A DNA stretch of 37,293 bases, from NCBI GenBank assembly GCA_947453545.1, contig CANGHE010000003.1, positions 1 through 37,293 on the forward strand. The letters are read 5' to 3'. Source of the stretch: Flavobacteriia bacterium (GTDB lineage: Bacteria > Bacteroidota > Bacteroidia > Flavobacteriales_D > Crocinitomicaceae). Under the pieces are notes generated by a model that did not search any database, was not told the DNA's origin, and was given only the letters and a program-made list of their open reading frames with translations. The translations under genes were made by a program, and so were the position numbers. Shown piece after piece: positions 30,429 through 36,634 of this stretch. The first letter of the stretch is position 1, and each line of letters starts with the position of its first letter.

Positions 30429-31331
30429 ATGAAAAATATATTTAAAATTTATTTGCCTGCTTTTGCATTGGTTATGTCATTAGTAGCGTGTGGAGGTGAA
30501 AAATCAACTTCATTAGAGGACGAATTAGGTGATCCAAGTTTGATGGTTAATTCAAAGAAACAAGCTAAAATGTTGGATGAATTAATTCAATCTATACCAT
30601 CTCCTGTGGAAATGAATACAGTAATTAAATCTACTGGCGCAGCTTTTAATGCAAATATTATGCATAAAACTTCTCAAGTAGATAAATATACTACCAATTA
30701 TGATCAAGCGTTAAATGTAGGTGTTTATACTGCTGATATGGGATATATCAACGTGTATGATAAAACTATGTATTCGTTGGCTTGTATAAGTGCGATTAAA
30801 AAACTTTCTGATGCAATTCAAGTTGGACAGTTTTTTGATTTTGAAGCGTTACAACGTCTTTCAAAAAACAGTAATAATGTTGACTCATTGCAATACATAA
30901 GTATAAATAGTTTTAATAAAATGGATGCTTATTTACGTTCTCAAAATAGAGGAGAATTAAGTGTATTAATTGTTTCAGGTGCTTGGTTGGAAGGTTTGCA
31001 TGTTGCTACTCAAACGATGAAAGCTAAATCAAATGATGAGTTACGTGAGAAAATTGGTGAACAGAAAATTGTTCTTGAAAGTCTAATGAAAATTTTGAAT
31101 ATGTGTGATCAAATTCCATATTTCAAAAAAATCATTGCTGGGTATGCTAAATTAAATGATGTTTTCAAGAAAGTGGAAATTAAATATGTACAAGGTGAGC
31201 CTGTAACGAAAATTGTAGATGGCCAAATGGTAATTGAAGATAGTTCAACTTCTGAAATTATTATGTCTGATGCTCAATTGAAAGAAATCACTGATTTAAC
31301 AGAGTCTGTAAGAAAAGAGATACTTAATTAA
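30429..31331 (+). CDS. Hypothetical lipoprotein
   Basis: Lipobox LVMSLVAC|GGEKSTS; 300 aa; 18 nt after the preceding gene. Confidence 0.8.
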   Translation: MKNIFKIYLPAFALVMSLVACGGEKSTSLEDELGDPSLMVNSKKQAKMLDELIQSIPSPVEMNTVIKSTGAAFNANIMHKTSQVDKYTTNYDQALNVGVYTADMGYINVYDKTMYSLACISAIKKLSDAIQVGQFFDFEALQRLSKNSNNVDSLQYISINSFNKMDAYLRSQNRGELSVLIVSGAWLEGLHVATQTMKAKSNDELREKIGEQKIVLESLMKILNMCDQIPYFKKIIAGYAKLNDVFKKVEIKYVQGEPVTKIVDGQMVIEDSSTSEIIMSDAQLKEITDLTESVRKEILN

Positions 31332-31350
31332 TTTTTAATTACTTAATATT

Positions 31351-31380
31351 AAAAAGGGATGTCATTGACATCCCTTTTTT
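31351..31380 (+). terminator. Strong Rho-independent terminator closing the adhesin/OmpA gene run
   Basis: aaaaagggatgtca-t-tgacatccctttttt, near-perfect inverted repeat ending in T6. Confidence 0.88.
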
Positions 31381-31446
31381 GTTTTATTGATATTACTCAT
31401 TCAAGATATTGTTGTTTTTTTGTTCTAGAAGTATGAGATATAGTTT

Positions 31447-31574
31447 CTTAATGTTTTGCGGCTATGCGTCTGCGGGCTAATAGGTTCTGGTTGTTTCGCC
31501 CATTGGCGATAAACACTTGATAGTTGATGCCGATTTCGGGCGTAACCTACCAAAGCCATCTGGTAGTGTTCATC
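31447..31574 (-). repeat. Structured intergenic element (element A), possibly a divergent relative of elements B and C
   Basis: Starts cttaatgttttgcggc (compare cattaacgttttgcgcc in C), shares attggcgata with B, and contains a CTACCA...TGGTAG hairpin at 31547-31566. Lies just past the 3' end of the DoxX-like ORF. Confidence 0.4.
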
Positions 31575-31603
31575 TATTTTTTTAGCAAATATTTTGAAAA
31601 TAT

Positions 31604-32209
31604 TTAATTAAATATGGATTTTGTTAGTTCACTTATTGATTTAATAGTTTCACTTGGATTTACTATTAGCTCGACTAAAAATCTGGGAATAGCACCAAAA
31701 ATTTCGAGTCCTATTGCCATAATTGGTAAAATTAAATATGCCCAAATTGGATATTTGAATTTAGTACTGATACCTAAAAAGATACTTTTAAACGCTAAAT
31801 ACATCCTATCTCTATAATGCCACAGAATTAAAAAGTCTAATATTAAATAATAACTTAATCTCCAGTAGAAACCAGTCATTTTAATATATGTAATGTCAAT
31901 TATTAAAATATTTAAAAGTATAGGAATTGAAATTAATGCTCCTAAAATTAAAGTCCTATTATAAACTAAAAGTAAACTTGTAATAATTTGCGAAATACCT
32001 ATAAAAGATTTAAATGGCTCTTGGTTAAATAAATACCAAGAAAGTTTAAAAAGCCCAAGTTCATTTACAGGTTTCTCCATTTCTTTTGCTGTAACTCCAA
32101 ATTGTCCATCTGTTAGTTTAGCCCAACCATAGATAAATAATATCAAAGCCAATAAAACTCTAGCGCAGAGAATACAATAGTCCCAAAGTTTTTGTTTTTT
32201 TTCAGTCAT
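31604..32209 (-). CDS. DoxX-like membrane protein
   Basis: 201 aa multi-TM; ARVLLALILFIYGWAKLTDGQFG near the N-terminus resembles DoxX families. Confidence 0.6.
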   Translation of the reverse strand: MTEKKQKLWDYCILCARVLLALILFIYGWAKLTDGQFGVTAKEMEKPVNELGLFKLSWYLFNQEPFKSFIGISQIITSLLLVYNRTLILGALISIPILLNILIIDITYIKMTGFYWRLSYYLILDFLILWHYRDRMYLAFKSIFLGISTKFKYPIWAYLILPIMAIGLEIFGAIPRFLVELIVNPSETIKSISELTKSIFN

Positions 32210-32324
32210 TAAGTTGTATTTATTATTAAAAAGTATTTGTAATTTTTATGACTTCATAAACGAAGATATTGAAAACAACATTATCGATTTTCCCCAAGCC
32301 CGAAAAGAGAACTCAAGCGGTTTC

Positions 32325-32461
32325 TACTAACGTTCCGCGCCTTTAGCGATTGGCGATACCGAGGCAAAACACCCAAAACCCGAAGCGAGATTTATTTTCA
32401 AAAGTAGTAAATATTTATTCGAAGTGAAGTTTAAGAGCCTAGTGCTAAAGCGCTGTTAGTG
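32325..32461 (-). repeat. attC-like element B (137 bp)
   Basis: Imperfect inverted ends: ACTAAC-gttcc-GCGC-c-TTTAGC ... GCTAAA-GCGC-t-GTTAGT. Same length as and highly similar to 33893-34029. Contains the stop codon of the S41 ORF. Confidence 0.65.
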
Positions 32462-33871
32462 TTTCGGCATTTCTTTTCGATTATCATTTACCTCTTGTTT
32501 AATTATGTAATCTAAAAGGAAATCCAAAGTATTAGATGTATTGTTTTTTACAGAACAGTCCTCATCAAAATTTATAATAGGAGATACTCCATCACATTGA
32601 TAATTAGTATTGACTGTATTTGTGCCTTTTATGTTAGGGATTCTGATCAAAATTTTAGAATTTGGAAGTTTTAAGATAACACCACCAGAATTCCATAATT
32701 TATAACCACCGCCAGATTCTTCACCAACAATTTTTGCGTTAGCAAATTCTTTTAAAGTTGAAGCCAAATTCGAAGCTGCGGAAACTGTATATCCATTTAT
32801 TATAACATAAACTTTACCAACGAACTGTTCTTTAGGTTCTAGAGTTTTTTCTGGATGGTTATTTACAAAGCGTCCGATTAAGGATGATACTAAATATTGC
32901 AACCTAAGTTTTTTCGTAAAGTGCTTTTTATATTTAGTCTTATGAATTTGTCGATATTCTATGGTGCTATAAGTGATAGGTTCTTTTATAAGATGTTCTA
33001 ATAAACGCGTTTGGTCTCTACCTCCAAGATTGTCTCTTAAATCAATTACTAATGTTTCAATATTTAAAGAATTTATTTTTAATATAAAATTTGTGAGTTC
33101 TTTTTCGTATTTCTTATTATTTGGCAAAGGTTTTGGCAATGTTAGAATAGCTGTATTTCTATCTGTGTTAATTGTATATGAAAGTTTATCTTGATTTTTT
33201 TGGCTTTTAGTTGACTTGACTTTGTAGCTTAGCTTTTCTAAATTAAGGGTTGACTGTAGCGTATCATTTTTATGAGTATATTTTAATTTTATAGTAGTCT
33301 CATCGGGTGCGTAAAGGGAATAGAATTTGAAAAAATTATTTTTCAATCTCTTCTCTTTAAATGTTAGGTTATTTCCATCTGAAGAAATAAAATTGAAAAG
33401 AGAATCTTTTATTTTTAAAATTGGTTCATCATTTATTTCCAATAATTTGTCGTTTTCTTCTAGCTTTAAGTTTTCGCTCGAATAACTATTCTTGGAGAAA
33501 AGTTGATTATCACAATATTGAAATAACTCATTTAATTTATCATAATCTTTAATCATTTTTATAAATTGCTTGTGTCCAATTTGTGTATGAATACACTTTA
33601 TATTTGAAATAAAATCAGAATAATGGGCAAAAAGTTCAATAGGAGATAGCGCCCTTTCATTTATATTATTTTCTAATTTTTTAAATAATAAATTAATTGA
33701 CGTCGTGTCATTATAATTATATAAACCTATATGACATTCTTTTAAAGTTGCTTTAAAAATGTTAAAATCTTCACGTTGCTTTACAATTCTTTTGTTTGTA
33801 TGTATATTTTCTTGTGAATAGGTTAGAAAAAATAAGTGATAAAAAATTAGTGTTAAAATATTTCTATACAT
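32456..33871 (-). CDS. S41-family (C-terminal processing/tail-specific type) peptidase, likely secreted
   Basis: VIDLRDNLGGRDQTRLL, VIINGYTVSAASNLAS, GEESGGGYKLWNSGG. The internal start MYRNILTLIFYHLFFLTYSQ gives a signal peptide; the listed start at 33895 overlaps element C. Confidence 0.85.
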   Translation of the reverse strand: MYRNILTLIFYHLFFLTYSQENIHTNKRIVKQREDFNIFKATLKECHIGLYNYNDTTSINLLFKKLENNINERALSPIELFAHYSDFISNIKCIHTQIGHKQFIKMIKDYDKLNELFQYCDNQLFSKNSYSSENLKLEENDKLLEINDEPILKIKDSLFNFISSDGNNLTFKEKRLKNNFFKFYSLYAPDETTIKLKYTHKNDTLQSTLNLEKLSYKVKSTKSQKNQDKLSYTINTDRNTAILTLPKPLPNNKKYEKELTNFILKINSLNIETLVIDLRDNLGGRDQTRLLEHLIKEPITYSTIEYRQIHKTKYKKHFTKKLRLQYLVSSLIGRFVNNHPEKTLEPKEQFVGKVYVIINGYTVSAASNLASTLKEFANAKIVGEESGGGYKLWNSGGVILKLPNSKILIRIPNIKGTNTVNTNYQCDGVSPIINFDEDCSVKNNTSNTLDFLLDYIIKQEVNDNRKEMPKH

Positions 33872-33892
33872 TACTGTTTTTTTTATGCTGAA

Positions 33893-34029
33893 CATTAACG
33901 TTTTGCGCCTTTAGCGATGGGCGATACCGAGGCAAAACACCCAAAACCCGAAGCGAGATTTATTTCAAATGTAGTAAATATTTATTCGAAGTGGGGGTAT
34001 AAGAGCCTATAGCTAAGGCGCTGTTAGTA
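33893..34029 (-). repeat. attC-like element C (137 bp)
   Basis: Inverted ends TTAAC-gttttt-like spacer-GCGCC-TTTAGC ... GCTAA-GGCGC-t-GTTAG with one unpaired base in the inner stem; near-identical to element B. Confidence 0.65.
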
Positions 34030-34035
34030 GCTGGG

Positions 34036-35076
34036 TTAAATTATTGTATAACTCACATTACGTCCTGCTCCTTGTTTTTCAATAATCCCTTTATTTATTA
34101 ATTCCGACAATATACGTTTCACTGTAGGTAATGGTATTGCTAATTTTTCTGAAATTTCTCCCGATTGAATATTTGGTCGATTTTGTATAATTGTAAAAAT
34201 TGATTTTTCTTTTGGCGAAAGTTGTTTTTCTAAACTATTCGTATTCAATTTCGTCATAAGTTGTTTTTGGATATTTGACAAACAACTTAAAAAGAAAATC
34301 ATCCAAACAGTTATGTCTTCATCAGGTCGTTGTGCTTGACAACTCCTAAGAACTTGATAATATTCGCTTTTTCGATTTTCTATTTCGTGTTCAAAACTCA
34401 CATATTCTATCCATTTATATCCATTTTTGAGTAGTAAGAGTGTTGAAATTAACCTACTAAGTCTTCCGTTTCCGTCTTGAAATGGATGAACACTTAAAAA
34501 GTCATAAACAAATGATGCAATTTTGATTAAAGGATGAACTTCTTCTTCTAAATTATACCAATCGATCAAAAGTCTTATTGCATCATCTGTAGCAAATCCT
34601 GCTTCAGTTGTTTGAAAAATAATTTGGCGCGTACCATCTGCAAATGAGGCTTCAACTGCATTGCTGTGAGTTTTGAAATTCCCTTTATGCCATTTATCCT
34701 TAGCACTATATTTCATCAAACTATTATGTAAACTTTTTATGTTGTTTTCGGTAAGATTGATTTTTTCGTAGGTCTCTGAAATCAAATCTAAAACTTCAAA
34801 ATATCCGACTACTTCTTGTGAATCCCTGTCAGTAAGATTTGTGATATCAATTTTTTGAAGTAGTACATCAACCTCTTCATCACTCATTTTGTTTCCTTCA
34901 ATACGATTTGAAGCCCCTACACTTTTTACAGTCGCTATATTTTTTAATTCCTTTAAACTTTGACCTTCTTTTCTTTCGATAGCTGTCCAATTAGCGTCAA
35001 ATCGGTCAATCTCACTTAGTAAATTTATAAGTTTCCAGTCAATACTAAGGTCGAAATTATATACTTTATTCTTCAT
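34036..35076 (-). CDS. Fic family protein with C-terminal winged-helix DNA-binding domain
   Basis: HPFQDGNGRLSRLI Fic motif; SNRIEGN inhibitory-helix motif; C-term IQSGEISEKLAIPLPTVKRILSELINKGIIEKQG wHTH. Confidence 0.92.
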   Translation of the reverse strand: MKNKVYNFDLSIDWKLINLLSEIDRFDANWTAIERKEGQSLKELKNIATVKSVGASNRIEGNKMSDEEVDVLLQKIDITNLTDRDSQEVVGYFEVLDLISETYEKINLTENNIKSLHNSLMKYSAKDKWHKGNFKTHSNAVEASFADGTRQIIFQTTEAGFATDDAIRLLIDWYNLEEEVHPLIKIASFVYDFLSVHPFQDGNGRLSRLISTLLLLKNGYKWIEYVSFEHEIENRKSEYYQVLRSCQAQRPDEDITVWMIFFLSCLSNIQKQLMTKLNTNSLEKQLSPKEKSIFTIIQNRPNIQSGEISEKLAIPLPTVKRILSELINKGIIEKQGAGRNVSYTII

Positions 35077-35079
35077 TTT

Positions 35080-35170
35080 GATACGATTTGATACGTAAAT
35101 ATACGATTTTGATTTGAAAAAACAAGGTAGAATGATACGGTTTGATACGTTTATAGTTGATTTTGATACG
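35080..35170 (-). promoter_or_regulatory. Cluster of GATACG/CGTATC half-sites upstream of the Fic gene, candidate operator
   Basis: gatacg at 35080, 35090, 35134, 35144 and 35165, plus a degenerate tatacg at 35100; two pairs have exact 10-bp spacing. Confidence 0.55.
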
Positions 35171-35340
35171 AATGAACTTATTGATTAAGTTGTGAGTTAT
35201 CTTGAATCGGATTCGTCGTACCTTGCTGCTAACTTATGTATATGCATAATATCATCAGGCTAATACATCCATTCTGGGTGCGTTGGCGCTATAACATCAC
35301 ACATTCACAAAATTAATATTTTAAGTAAAATAACATTCAT

Positions 35341-35395: not shown

Positions 35396-36634
35396 TTACA
35401 CTTTCTTAAAGATTACCGAAGCGATATGTCCACCAAATCCAAACGTATTGCTCATAGCGTAGGTCATTTTTTTAGCTTCTCCTTTGTGTAAAGGGAAGTG
35501 AAACAAAGATGCGTATTCAGGTTCGATATTTTCTGTATTGATAGTCGGCGGTACAATTTGTTCTTGCAATGCTTTTACACAAGCAATTGCCTCTATGGCA
35601 CCTGCTGCACCTAGTAAGTGTCCGGTCATAGATTTAGTTCCAGAAATACTCAATGCTTTGTTTTCTCCAAACACTCTTTTAGCAGCGATTAACTCACTTA
35701 CATCACCTTGTGGGGTAGAAGTGGCGTGCATATTAATATAATCGATGTCAGAGGCTTTAATTTCAGCTTCTTCAATAGCCAATTCCATTCCTAGTACAGC
35801 TCCTTCTCCTTCTGGGTGTGTTCCTGTAAGGTGGTAAGCATCTGCTGCCATTCCTCCTCCAACAATTTCTCCTAAGATAGTTGCTCCTCGTTTTACTGCG
35901 TGTTCGTATTCTTCTAAGATCAACGCTCCTGCACCTTCACCCATAACAAATCCGTCTCTATCCACATCAAATGGTCTAGAAGCAGTTGCTGGGTCACTGT
36001 TACGTTTGGATAAGGCTTGTGCCGCTGAGAATCCACCAATGGCTGCTTGGTTAATTGCAGCTTCCGAACCACCAGAAATGATGATGTCTGCTTTGTTCCA
36101 ACGAATGTAGTTAAATGCATCAATCAAGGCAGTATTGGAAGTAGCACACGCAGAAACAGGGCAATAGTTTACTCCTCTCAATCCGTATTTAATAGAGATA
36201 ATCCCAGAGGCAATATCAACTAAGATACGCGGAATGAAAAATGGAGTAAAGCGTGGCGTTCCATCACCTTGGCAAAATTCCATCATTTGGTCTTGGAAGG
36301 TTTGTATACCACCATTTCCAGATCCCCAAATTACCCCAATACGGTTGCAGTTTAAATTGCTAAAATCCAATCCTGCTTGTTGTACCGCTTCTTCCACAGC
36401 TACCAACGCATATTGTGTAAATCGGTCGTATTTTCTAATTTCCTTTACGTCAAAATGATTTTTAGGCTCAAAATCTTTCAATTCGCACGCAAACGTAGTT
36501 TTAAATTTTTCAGTGTCAAATTTGGTAATAGGACCAGCACCGCTAACCCCATTTTTCATGTTCGTCCAGTATTCCTCTACCGAATTCCCAATAGGTGTCA
36601 ATGCACCCATTCCAGTTATAACAACTCTTCTCAT
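35396..36634 (-). CDS. fabF: Beta-ketoacyl-ACP synthase II
   Basis: MRRVVITGMGALTPIGNSVEEYW, CPVSACATSNTALIDAF, NMHATSTPQGD, GTKSMTGHLLGAAGAIEA, NTFGFGGHIASVIFKK. Confidence 0.96.
   Translation of the reverse strand: MRRVVITGMGALTPIGNSVEEYWTNMKNGVSGAGPITKFDTEKFKTTFACELKDFEPKNHFDVKEIRKYDRFTQYALVAVEEAVQQAGLDFSNLNCNRIGVIWGSGNGGIQTFQDQMMEFCQGDGTPRFTPFFIPRILVDIASGIISIKYGLRGVNYCPVSACATSNTALIDAFNYIRWNKADIIISGGSEAAINQAAIGGFSAAQALSKRNSDPATASRPFDVDRDGFVMGEGAGALILEEYEHAVKRGATILGEIVGGGMAADAYHLTGTHPEGEGAVLGMELAIEEAEIKASDIDYINMHATSTPQGDVSELIAAKRVFGENKALSISGTKSMTGHLLGAAGAIEAIACVKALQEQIVPPTINTENIEPEYASLFHFPLHKGEAKKMTYAMSNTFGFGGHIASVIFKKV

Follow-up and report, generated by a model that had tools for sequence, protein, structure and literature searches.

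A candidate integron-like system of Bacteroidia with a recombinase lacking the I2 insert

Cassettes and sites in the window

The stretch of DNA analysed here, 37,293 nucleotides long and referred to throughout as the window, comprises positions 1 to 37,293 of contig CANGHE010000003.1 from a Flavobacteriia bacterium of the family Crocinitomicaceae (assembly GCA_947453545.1). Towards its right end, all on the minus strand, the window carries a short run of genes that are followed by long palindromic elements and that an earlier note on this DNA had proposed to be an integron-like array of gene cassettes. The parts of the array and its flank are, in gene order:

35396..36634, minus strand: fabF-like 3-oxoacyl-acyl carrier protein synthase II gene (open reading frame, ORF; named from sequence alone)
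35231..35328, minus strand: attI-like site ending TATACATAA^GTT, with the G at 35233 (assigned by motif and position class)
33900..35233, minus strand: cassette 1, Fic ORF plus attC C, 1334 bp (GTT-to-GTT unit)
34036..35076, minus strand: Fic protein of 346 amino acids with a winged-helix C-terminus, SoFic-like (Pfam PF02661; PADLOC SoFic, E=8e-44)
33889..34033, minus strand: attC-like element C, R'' box C-AGCTACT-AAC, crossover GTT with the G at 33899 (from sequence and family homology)
32332..33899, minus strand: cassette 2, S41 peptidase ORF plus attC B (GTT-to-GTT unit)
32456..33895, minus strand: peptidase S41-family protein of 479 amino acids (Pfam PF03572; ORF)
32321..32465, minus strand: attC-like element B, crossover GTT with the G at 32331 (from sequence; 91% identical to C)
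31440..32331, minus strand: cassette 3, DoxX ORF at 31604-32209 (Pfam DoxX)

The fabF-like gene, with a terminator-like hairpin past its stop, forms the chromosomal flank of the array. Elements B and C lie where the earlier note had put them, and their likeness exceeds its estimate of about 85%: they are 91% identical over 133 bp, and a repeat finder gave 96% over the best 70 bp. The architecture it had described, with AAC/GTT outer boxes, spacers of 1 versus 5 nucleotides and an inner stem with one extra base, can be read in the window sequence; the R'' box of element B is overlapped by the stop codon of the S41 peptidase ORF. No Rfam family matches the elements. The note's last boundary, "A" (about 31440-31560), had to be given up, as no clear copy of the element is found there. 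The 3' end of cassette 3 has no intact attC and gave no element match in the profile search, and the array is probably truncated on this side. The adjoining lipoprotein gene (30429-31331) has another conserved gene context in eight relatives; a break in synteny falls at 31331-31604.

At the opposite end, the strict form of the attI motif, TATANATAAGTT, occurs once in the window against 0.125 expected, and this occurrence is at the start of the Fic cassette. The earlier note had proposed either a cluster of attC sites lacking an integron-integrase (CALIN) or a new cassette family. The window contains no integrase gene; given the attI-like site, the array would be more than a bare attC cluster.

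Cassette transfer and the element family

Gain of a cassette at exactly G^TT had been set beforehand as a test of the proposal, and the Fic cassette provides an example. Its counterpart in a related genome, G067 (locus L050), is a 1333-bp cassette with 93% identity (1239 identities), and the local alignment begins at the 5' GTT itself (offset 0) and ends at +3 of the 3' GTT. In the 500 bp on either side, the window and G067 align no better than shuffled sequence. The cassette is preceded by an attC in G067, as in a further genome, G055, and by a different, attI-like sequence in the window. Exchange at G^TT is seen against both genomes, and the boundaries of the transferred unit are those of the whole cassette, not of a single element.

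The palindromes belong to a family. The earlier note had asked for a search of the full genome for more copies, and the window's own genome has them at five further places (contigs 12, 61 and 135). The family is present in 7 of the 13 genomes of the genus and is also strong in one genome from another genus of the same family. A profile iterated from B and C detected 55 copies in the stretches fetched. These attC-like palindromes measure 90-190 bp and sit at the 3' ends of genes; a cassette consists of one or two ORFs and its 3' palindrome. Copies form co-oriented arrays in which usually one or two ORFs separate neighbouring elements, the clear cases being contig 4 of G055 (L054, nine elements) and contig 82 of G067 (L049, seven elements). 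Some copies are solitary or degenerate. Two outcomes that the earlier note had named as refuting, namely dispersal without regular gene alternation, as with miniature inverted-repeat transposable elements (MITE) or repetitive extragenic palindromes (REP), and MITE-type duplications, were not found; in the arrays, ORFs and elements take turns along a single strand.

The complete system in relatives

A complete locus is seen in G004, a genome of one contig. Here, the gene for a 380-amino-acid tyrosine recombinase is followed, 50 bp past its stop, by the site GTTAGCATTA and then by cassettes. The attC of the first cassette begins TAATGCTAAC, the exact complement of the attI sequence GTTAGCATTA. 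The array gives 39 profile matches, all on the plus strand, over 30 kb (median spacing 742 bp); adjoining matches merge into 35 elements. One-orientation cassette arrays are also found in Rufibacter, Algibacter and Seonamhaeicola, and in many genera a palindrome ending TATA..ATAA^GTT lies 30-130 bp after the recombinase stop. Of 72 distinct loci, 39 have a loose form of the attI motif in the first 200 bp past the stop, one has it in the next 200-bp bin and none in the bin beyond. The attC arm of the first cassette is complementary to the attI tail at 19 of 89 recombinase loci, and at none of the 89 when the downstream sequence is shuffled. A locus from a Spirochaetota metagenome-assembled genome (MAG), L213, passes this last test as well, which may reflect either an occurrence of the system outside Bacteroidota or contamination of the MAG. 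A plasmid of Chryseobacterium sp. SNU WT5 (L249, 13005-20830) encodes the same type of recombinase with an attI-like motif after it, and contains a 176-bp segment in four nearly identical copies. This locus is possibly a mobile version of the system.

The outer boxes obey a rule of their own, with C-N7-AAC in the 5' arm of attC and GTT-N7-A at the cassette start, the two being mutually complementary within a cassette. Behind ACGTT, 19 complete 7/7 matches were found in the search set (most from G004, the remainder from other genera) and none in shuffled sequence. Element C of the window obeys the C-N7-AAC rule; element B lacks the C. The invariant C and A of these boxes give a mismatch when the top strand folds and a G.T wobble when the bottom strand does. 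As the earlier note had remarked of the outer 7-mers, the boxes deviate from canonical RYYYAAC and GTTRRRY, each of which is fitted by only 4 of 22 in G004, while the AAC/GTT cores are retained.

Complementarity extends to neighbours in an array, as would be expected if cassettes had once been circles, each with a 5' end complementary to the outer arm of the attC that it carries. In 21 adjacent pairs of G004, the tail of an element agrees with the head of its successor at 7.6 of 9 positions, versus 4.2 in shuffled pairs, and none of 20,000 shuffles was as good. The corresponding counts are 0/2,000 each for Rufibacter sp. SYSU D00344 and Algibacter onchidii, and 6/2,000 for Seonamhaeicola aphaedonensis. 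In the arrays of the genus itself, many heads have degenerated or elements between them went undetected, so that the effect is weak (9 pairs; 8-51 of 5000 shuffles do equally well); the test is therefore carried by G004 and the cultured genomes.

Folding points to the bottom strand. With DNA parameters, and with the cassette's own 5' end restored to each site, the bottom strand folds better in 21/21 G004 sites (mean -34.3 versus -28.8 kcal/mol), and the inner L'' and L' arms, set off from the R boxes by unpaired spacers, covary (0/10,000 shuffles as good); the sites are kin, so that these counts are not independent. Both elements of the window share the bias, with -21.8 (bottom) versus -14.4 kcal/mol (top) for C and -15.4 versus -12.1 kcal/mol for B.

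The recombinase scores 218 bits against the integron-integrase model (cut-off 265) and 217 against XerA (cut-off 220). In an alignment with IntI4 (2a3v), the I2 interval counts 17 residues in the recombinase and 59 in IntI4. More generally, this interval comprises 56 residues in all 33 IntI references and 0-27 in all 143 other proteins aligned. An AlphaFold model (mean predicted local distance difference test score 79) shows no helix at 294-310; its predicted template modelling score of 0.46 leaves the placement of domains unsure. The best PDB match of the model is IntI4. In a quick tree, IntI proteins form one clade (Shimodaira-Hasegawa-like approximate likelihood ratio test, 99), the Bacteroidia enzymes fall outside it with modest backbone support, and the recombinase is separate from the genus's own Xer proteins. 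The core is preceded by an N-terminal region of about 100 amino acids without Pfam match (residues 1-105 in L058), which is longer and possibly duplicated in G078 (L121). The candidate is usually encoded by one gene per genome; each genome also holds other tyrosine recombinases. In two genomes (L055, 5435-7730; L061, 1-712), some 150 bp separate an attC-like element from an IS91-type element that has its own tyrosine recombinase. This recombinase, found beside elements in G055 and G110, was considered as the integrase but rejected, since it is coupled to a Y2 transposase and forms a clade of its own.

The earlier note had proposed a search for IntI or another recombinase. The relatives supplied the latter, lacking I2, while no protein of the 13 genus genomes exceeds the TIGR02249 cut-off for IntI with the additional I2 domain. 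In a survey of the class, identified as Bacteroidia through its named relatives, 198 of the 396 genomes have the I2-less recombinase and 1/396 has a true IntI (threshold E<=1e-50). The former figure is the most that integrons could reach, as an array is not shown for every homologue. Across a wider sample of the phylum, a true IntI exceeds the cut-off in 110 of 399 genomes, almost all of which belong to other classes.

The position of the window array finds parallels in the genus. An attI-like site after fabF is also present in G001, G055 and G067, and fabF adjoins either an array or an attI-like site in these three genomes and in G110. The genus therefore seems to possess, remote from the integrase gene, a second cassette platform behind fabF.

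Alternative explanations and implications

We consider the run of cassettes in the window to be a short array belonging to an integron-like system of the class Bacteroidia, with a probability of roughly 85%. The proposal of integron-like cassettes gains support from the alternation of ORFs and elements, the attI site and the cassette-end complementarity seen in relatives. We infer that circular cassettes insert at the palindromic attI and become joined tail to head at G^TT, and that the I2-less XerA/IntI-like recombinase acts on attC as a folded bottom strand to excise and insert them. The window array would then belong to the second platform after fabF, either served in trans or now orphaned.

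The system shares with chromosomal (sedentary) integrons of the IntI type, such as those of Vibrio, an integrase gene, an attI, co-oriented and mostly single-gene cassettes, a palindromic attC per cassette, G^TT junctions and a bottom-strand folding bias. Unlike theirs, its integrase falls outside the IntI clade, lacks the I2 insert (0-27 residues instead of 56), is co-directional with the cassettes and has attI after its stop codon; the outer boxes span 10 nucleotides with a fixed C/A position instead of RYYYAAC/GTTRRRY. The recombinase resembles XerA and XerC/D (NF040815, TIGR02224, TIGR02225) in the arrangement of its domains and in catalytic-domain length, and scores just under the NF040815 cut-off, but its gene lies beside attI and cassette arrays and often includes the extra N-terminal region. 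There is also a likeness to the pdif modules of Acinetobacter, which are thought to be mobilised by Xer proteins, that is, by tyrosine recombinases without I2 (PMC7399989). The Bacteroidia system differs from these in its dedicated recombinase gene, its attI and its folded attC-like palindromes.

Could the array nonetheless be explained by a known process? One candidate would be double-strand exchange of modules by an Xer-type enzyme at short duplex GTT sites, as at pdif, the palindromes serving, for instance, in termination. Sites of the dif type are 28-bp duplexes. The Xer/XerA length of the recombinase, its lack of I2 and the Acinetobacter precedent speak for such exchange, yet a duplex site needs neither arms 70-170 bp apart nor variable outer boxes that covary per cassette, and the preference of the pairing for one strand would be superfluous. 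We regard this explanation as unlikely. One could also suppose that the recombinase is a chance neighbour of the arrays, of phage or IS91 type, and that another protein is the true integrase; other tyrosine recombinases are indeed at hand in each genome, and the IS91-type one in G055 and G110 is close to an element. Against this, IS91-type enzymes cluster apart, the candidate is usually unique in its genome, arrays begin right behind it in several families, and the attI motif lies within 200 bp of it in more than half of the loci (39/72). Such a coincidence strikes us as quite improbable.

An ordinary CALIN, made of canonical integron cassettes whose I2-bearing IntI is elsewhere or lost, would account for the cassettes and attC-like sites of the window, which have no integrase beside them, and true IntI is frequent in the rest of the phylum, as the figure of 110/399 indicates. 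However, IntI is missing over the cut-off from the 13 genus genomes and nearly so from the class (1/396), the same kind of array stands directly behind the I2-less recombinase, and only 4/22 R boxes fit either canonical consensus. We give this possibility very little weight. Least credible is that MITE- or REP-like palindromes, or terminators, came to be dispersed between accessory genes by chance. Solitary and degenerate copies and the siting at gene 3' ends would suit it, whereas one-strand arrays, exact GTT-to-GTT transfer and tail/head complementarity between neighbours would not.

Several observations weigh against an integron-like system moved by this recombinase. No match to the recombinase at E<=1e-60 was found in the MAG that contains the window (74% complete), nor in two array carriers, G025 (99% complete) and G067 (90%). 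In G001, G086 and G110, the recombinase is not trailed by a consensus attI. Only 19 of 89 loci pass the strict first-cassette test, so many homologues may act otherwise. Finally, the I2 helix is held to make recombination of folded attC safe (PMC7790495), and the mechanism proposed here therefore needs another way to avoid second-strand exchange.

The cargo of the window consists of the SoFic-like Fic protein, the S41 peptidase and the DoxX protein. In neighbouring arrays, a Gp49/helix-turn-helix pair of the HigBA kind, resembling a toxin-antitoxin system, occurs six times beside elements in three genomes (L054, L056, L058, L059, L060 and L062), and, judging from the sequence, an apparent type III restriction-modification set is also present. 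A second Fic gene of the window (DUF4172-Fic, 732-1910) has its start region (689-794) repeated directly after its stop (1978-2083) with 81% identity. The latter copy is probably the remnant of a tandem duplicate, and the repeats, being a remnant start of this Fic gene, were rejected as cassette sites.

IntegronFinder 2.0, which recognises IntI by its extra domain, named one complete integron in Bacteroidetes, that of Salinibacter ruber (PMC9024848). Because both the definition of integrons and the searches for them rely on IntI with its additional helix, a system without the helix goes unseen. In full-text searches of the open-access literature, we found no account of such a system in Bacteroidota or of an I2-less integrase. 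I2 is viewed as the acquisition that enabled single-strand recombination and is absent from Xer proteins (PMC7790495, PMC4792948). We lean towards the view that Bacteroidia have an integron lineage of their own, in up to half of the species, whose integrases recombine folded attC sites without I2. The recombinase may represent an independent origin of the integron or the ancestral state that preceded I2. If active, the system would constitute a large unrecorded platform for gene exchange in Bacteroidota, carrying defence and toxin-antitoxin genes. It also gives experiments access to the origin of integrons and to the question of whether cassettes can recombine as single strands only with I2.

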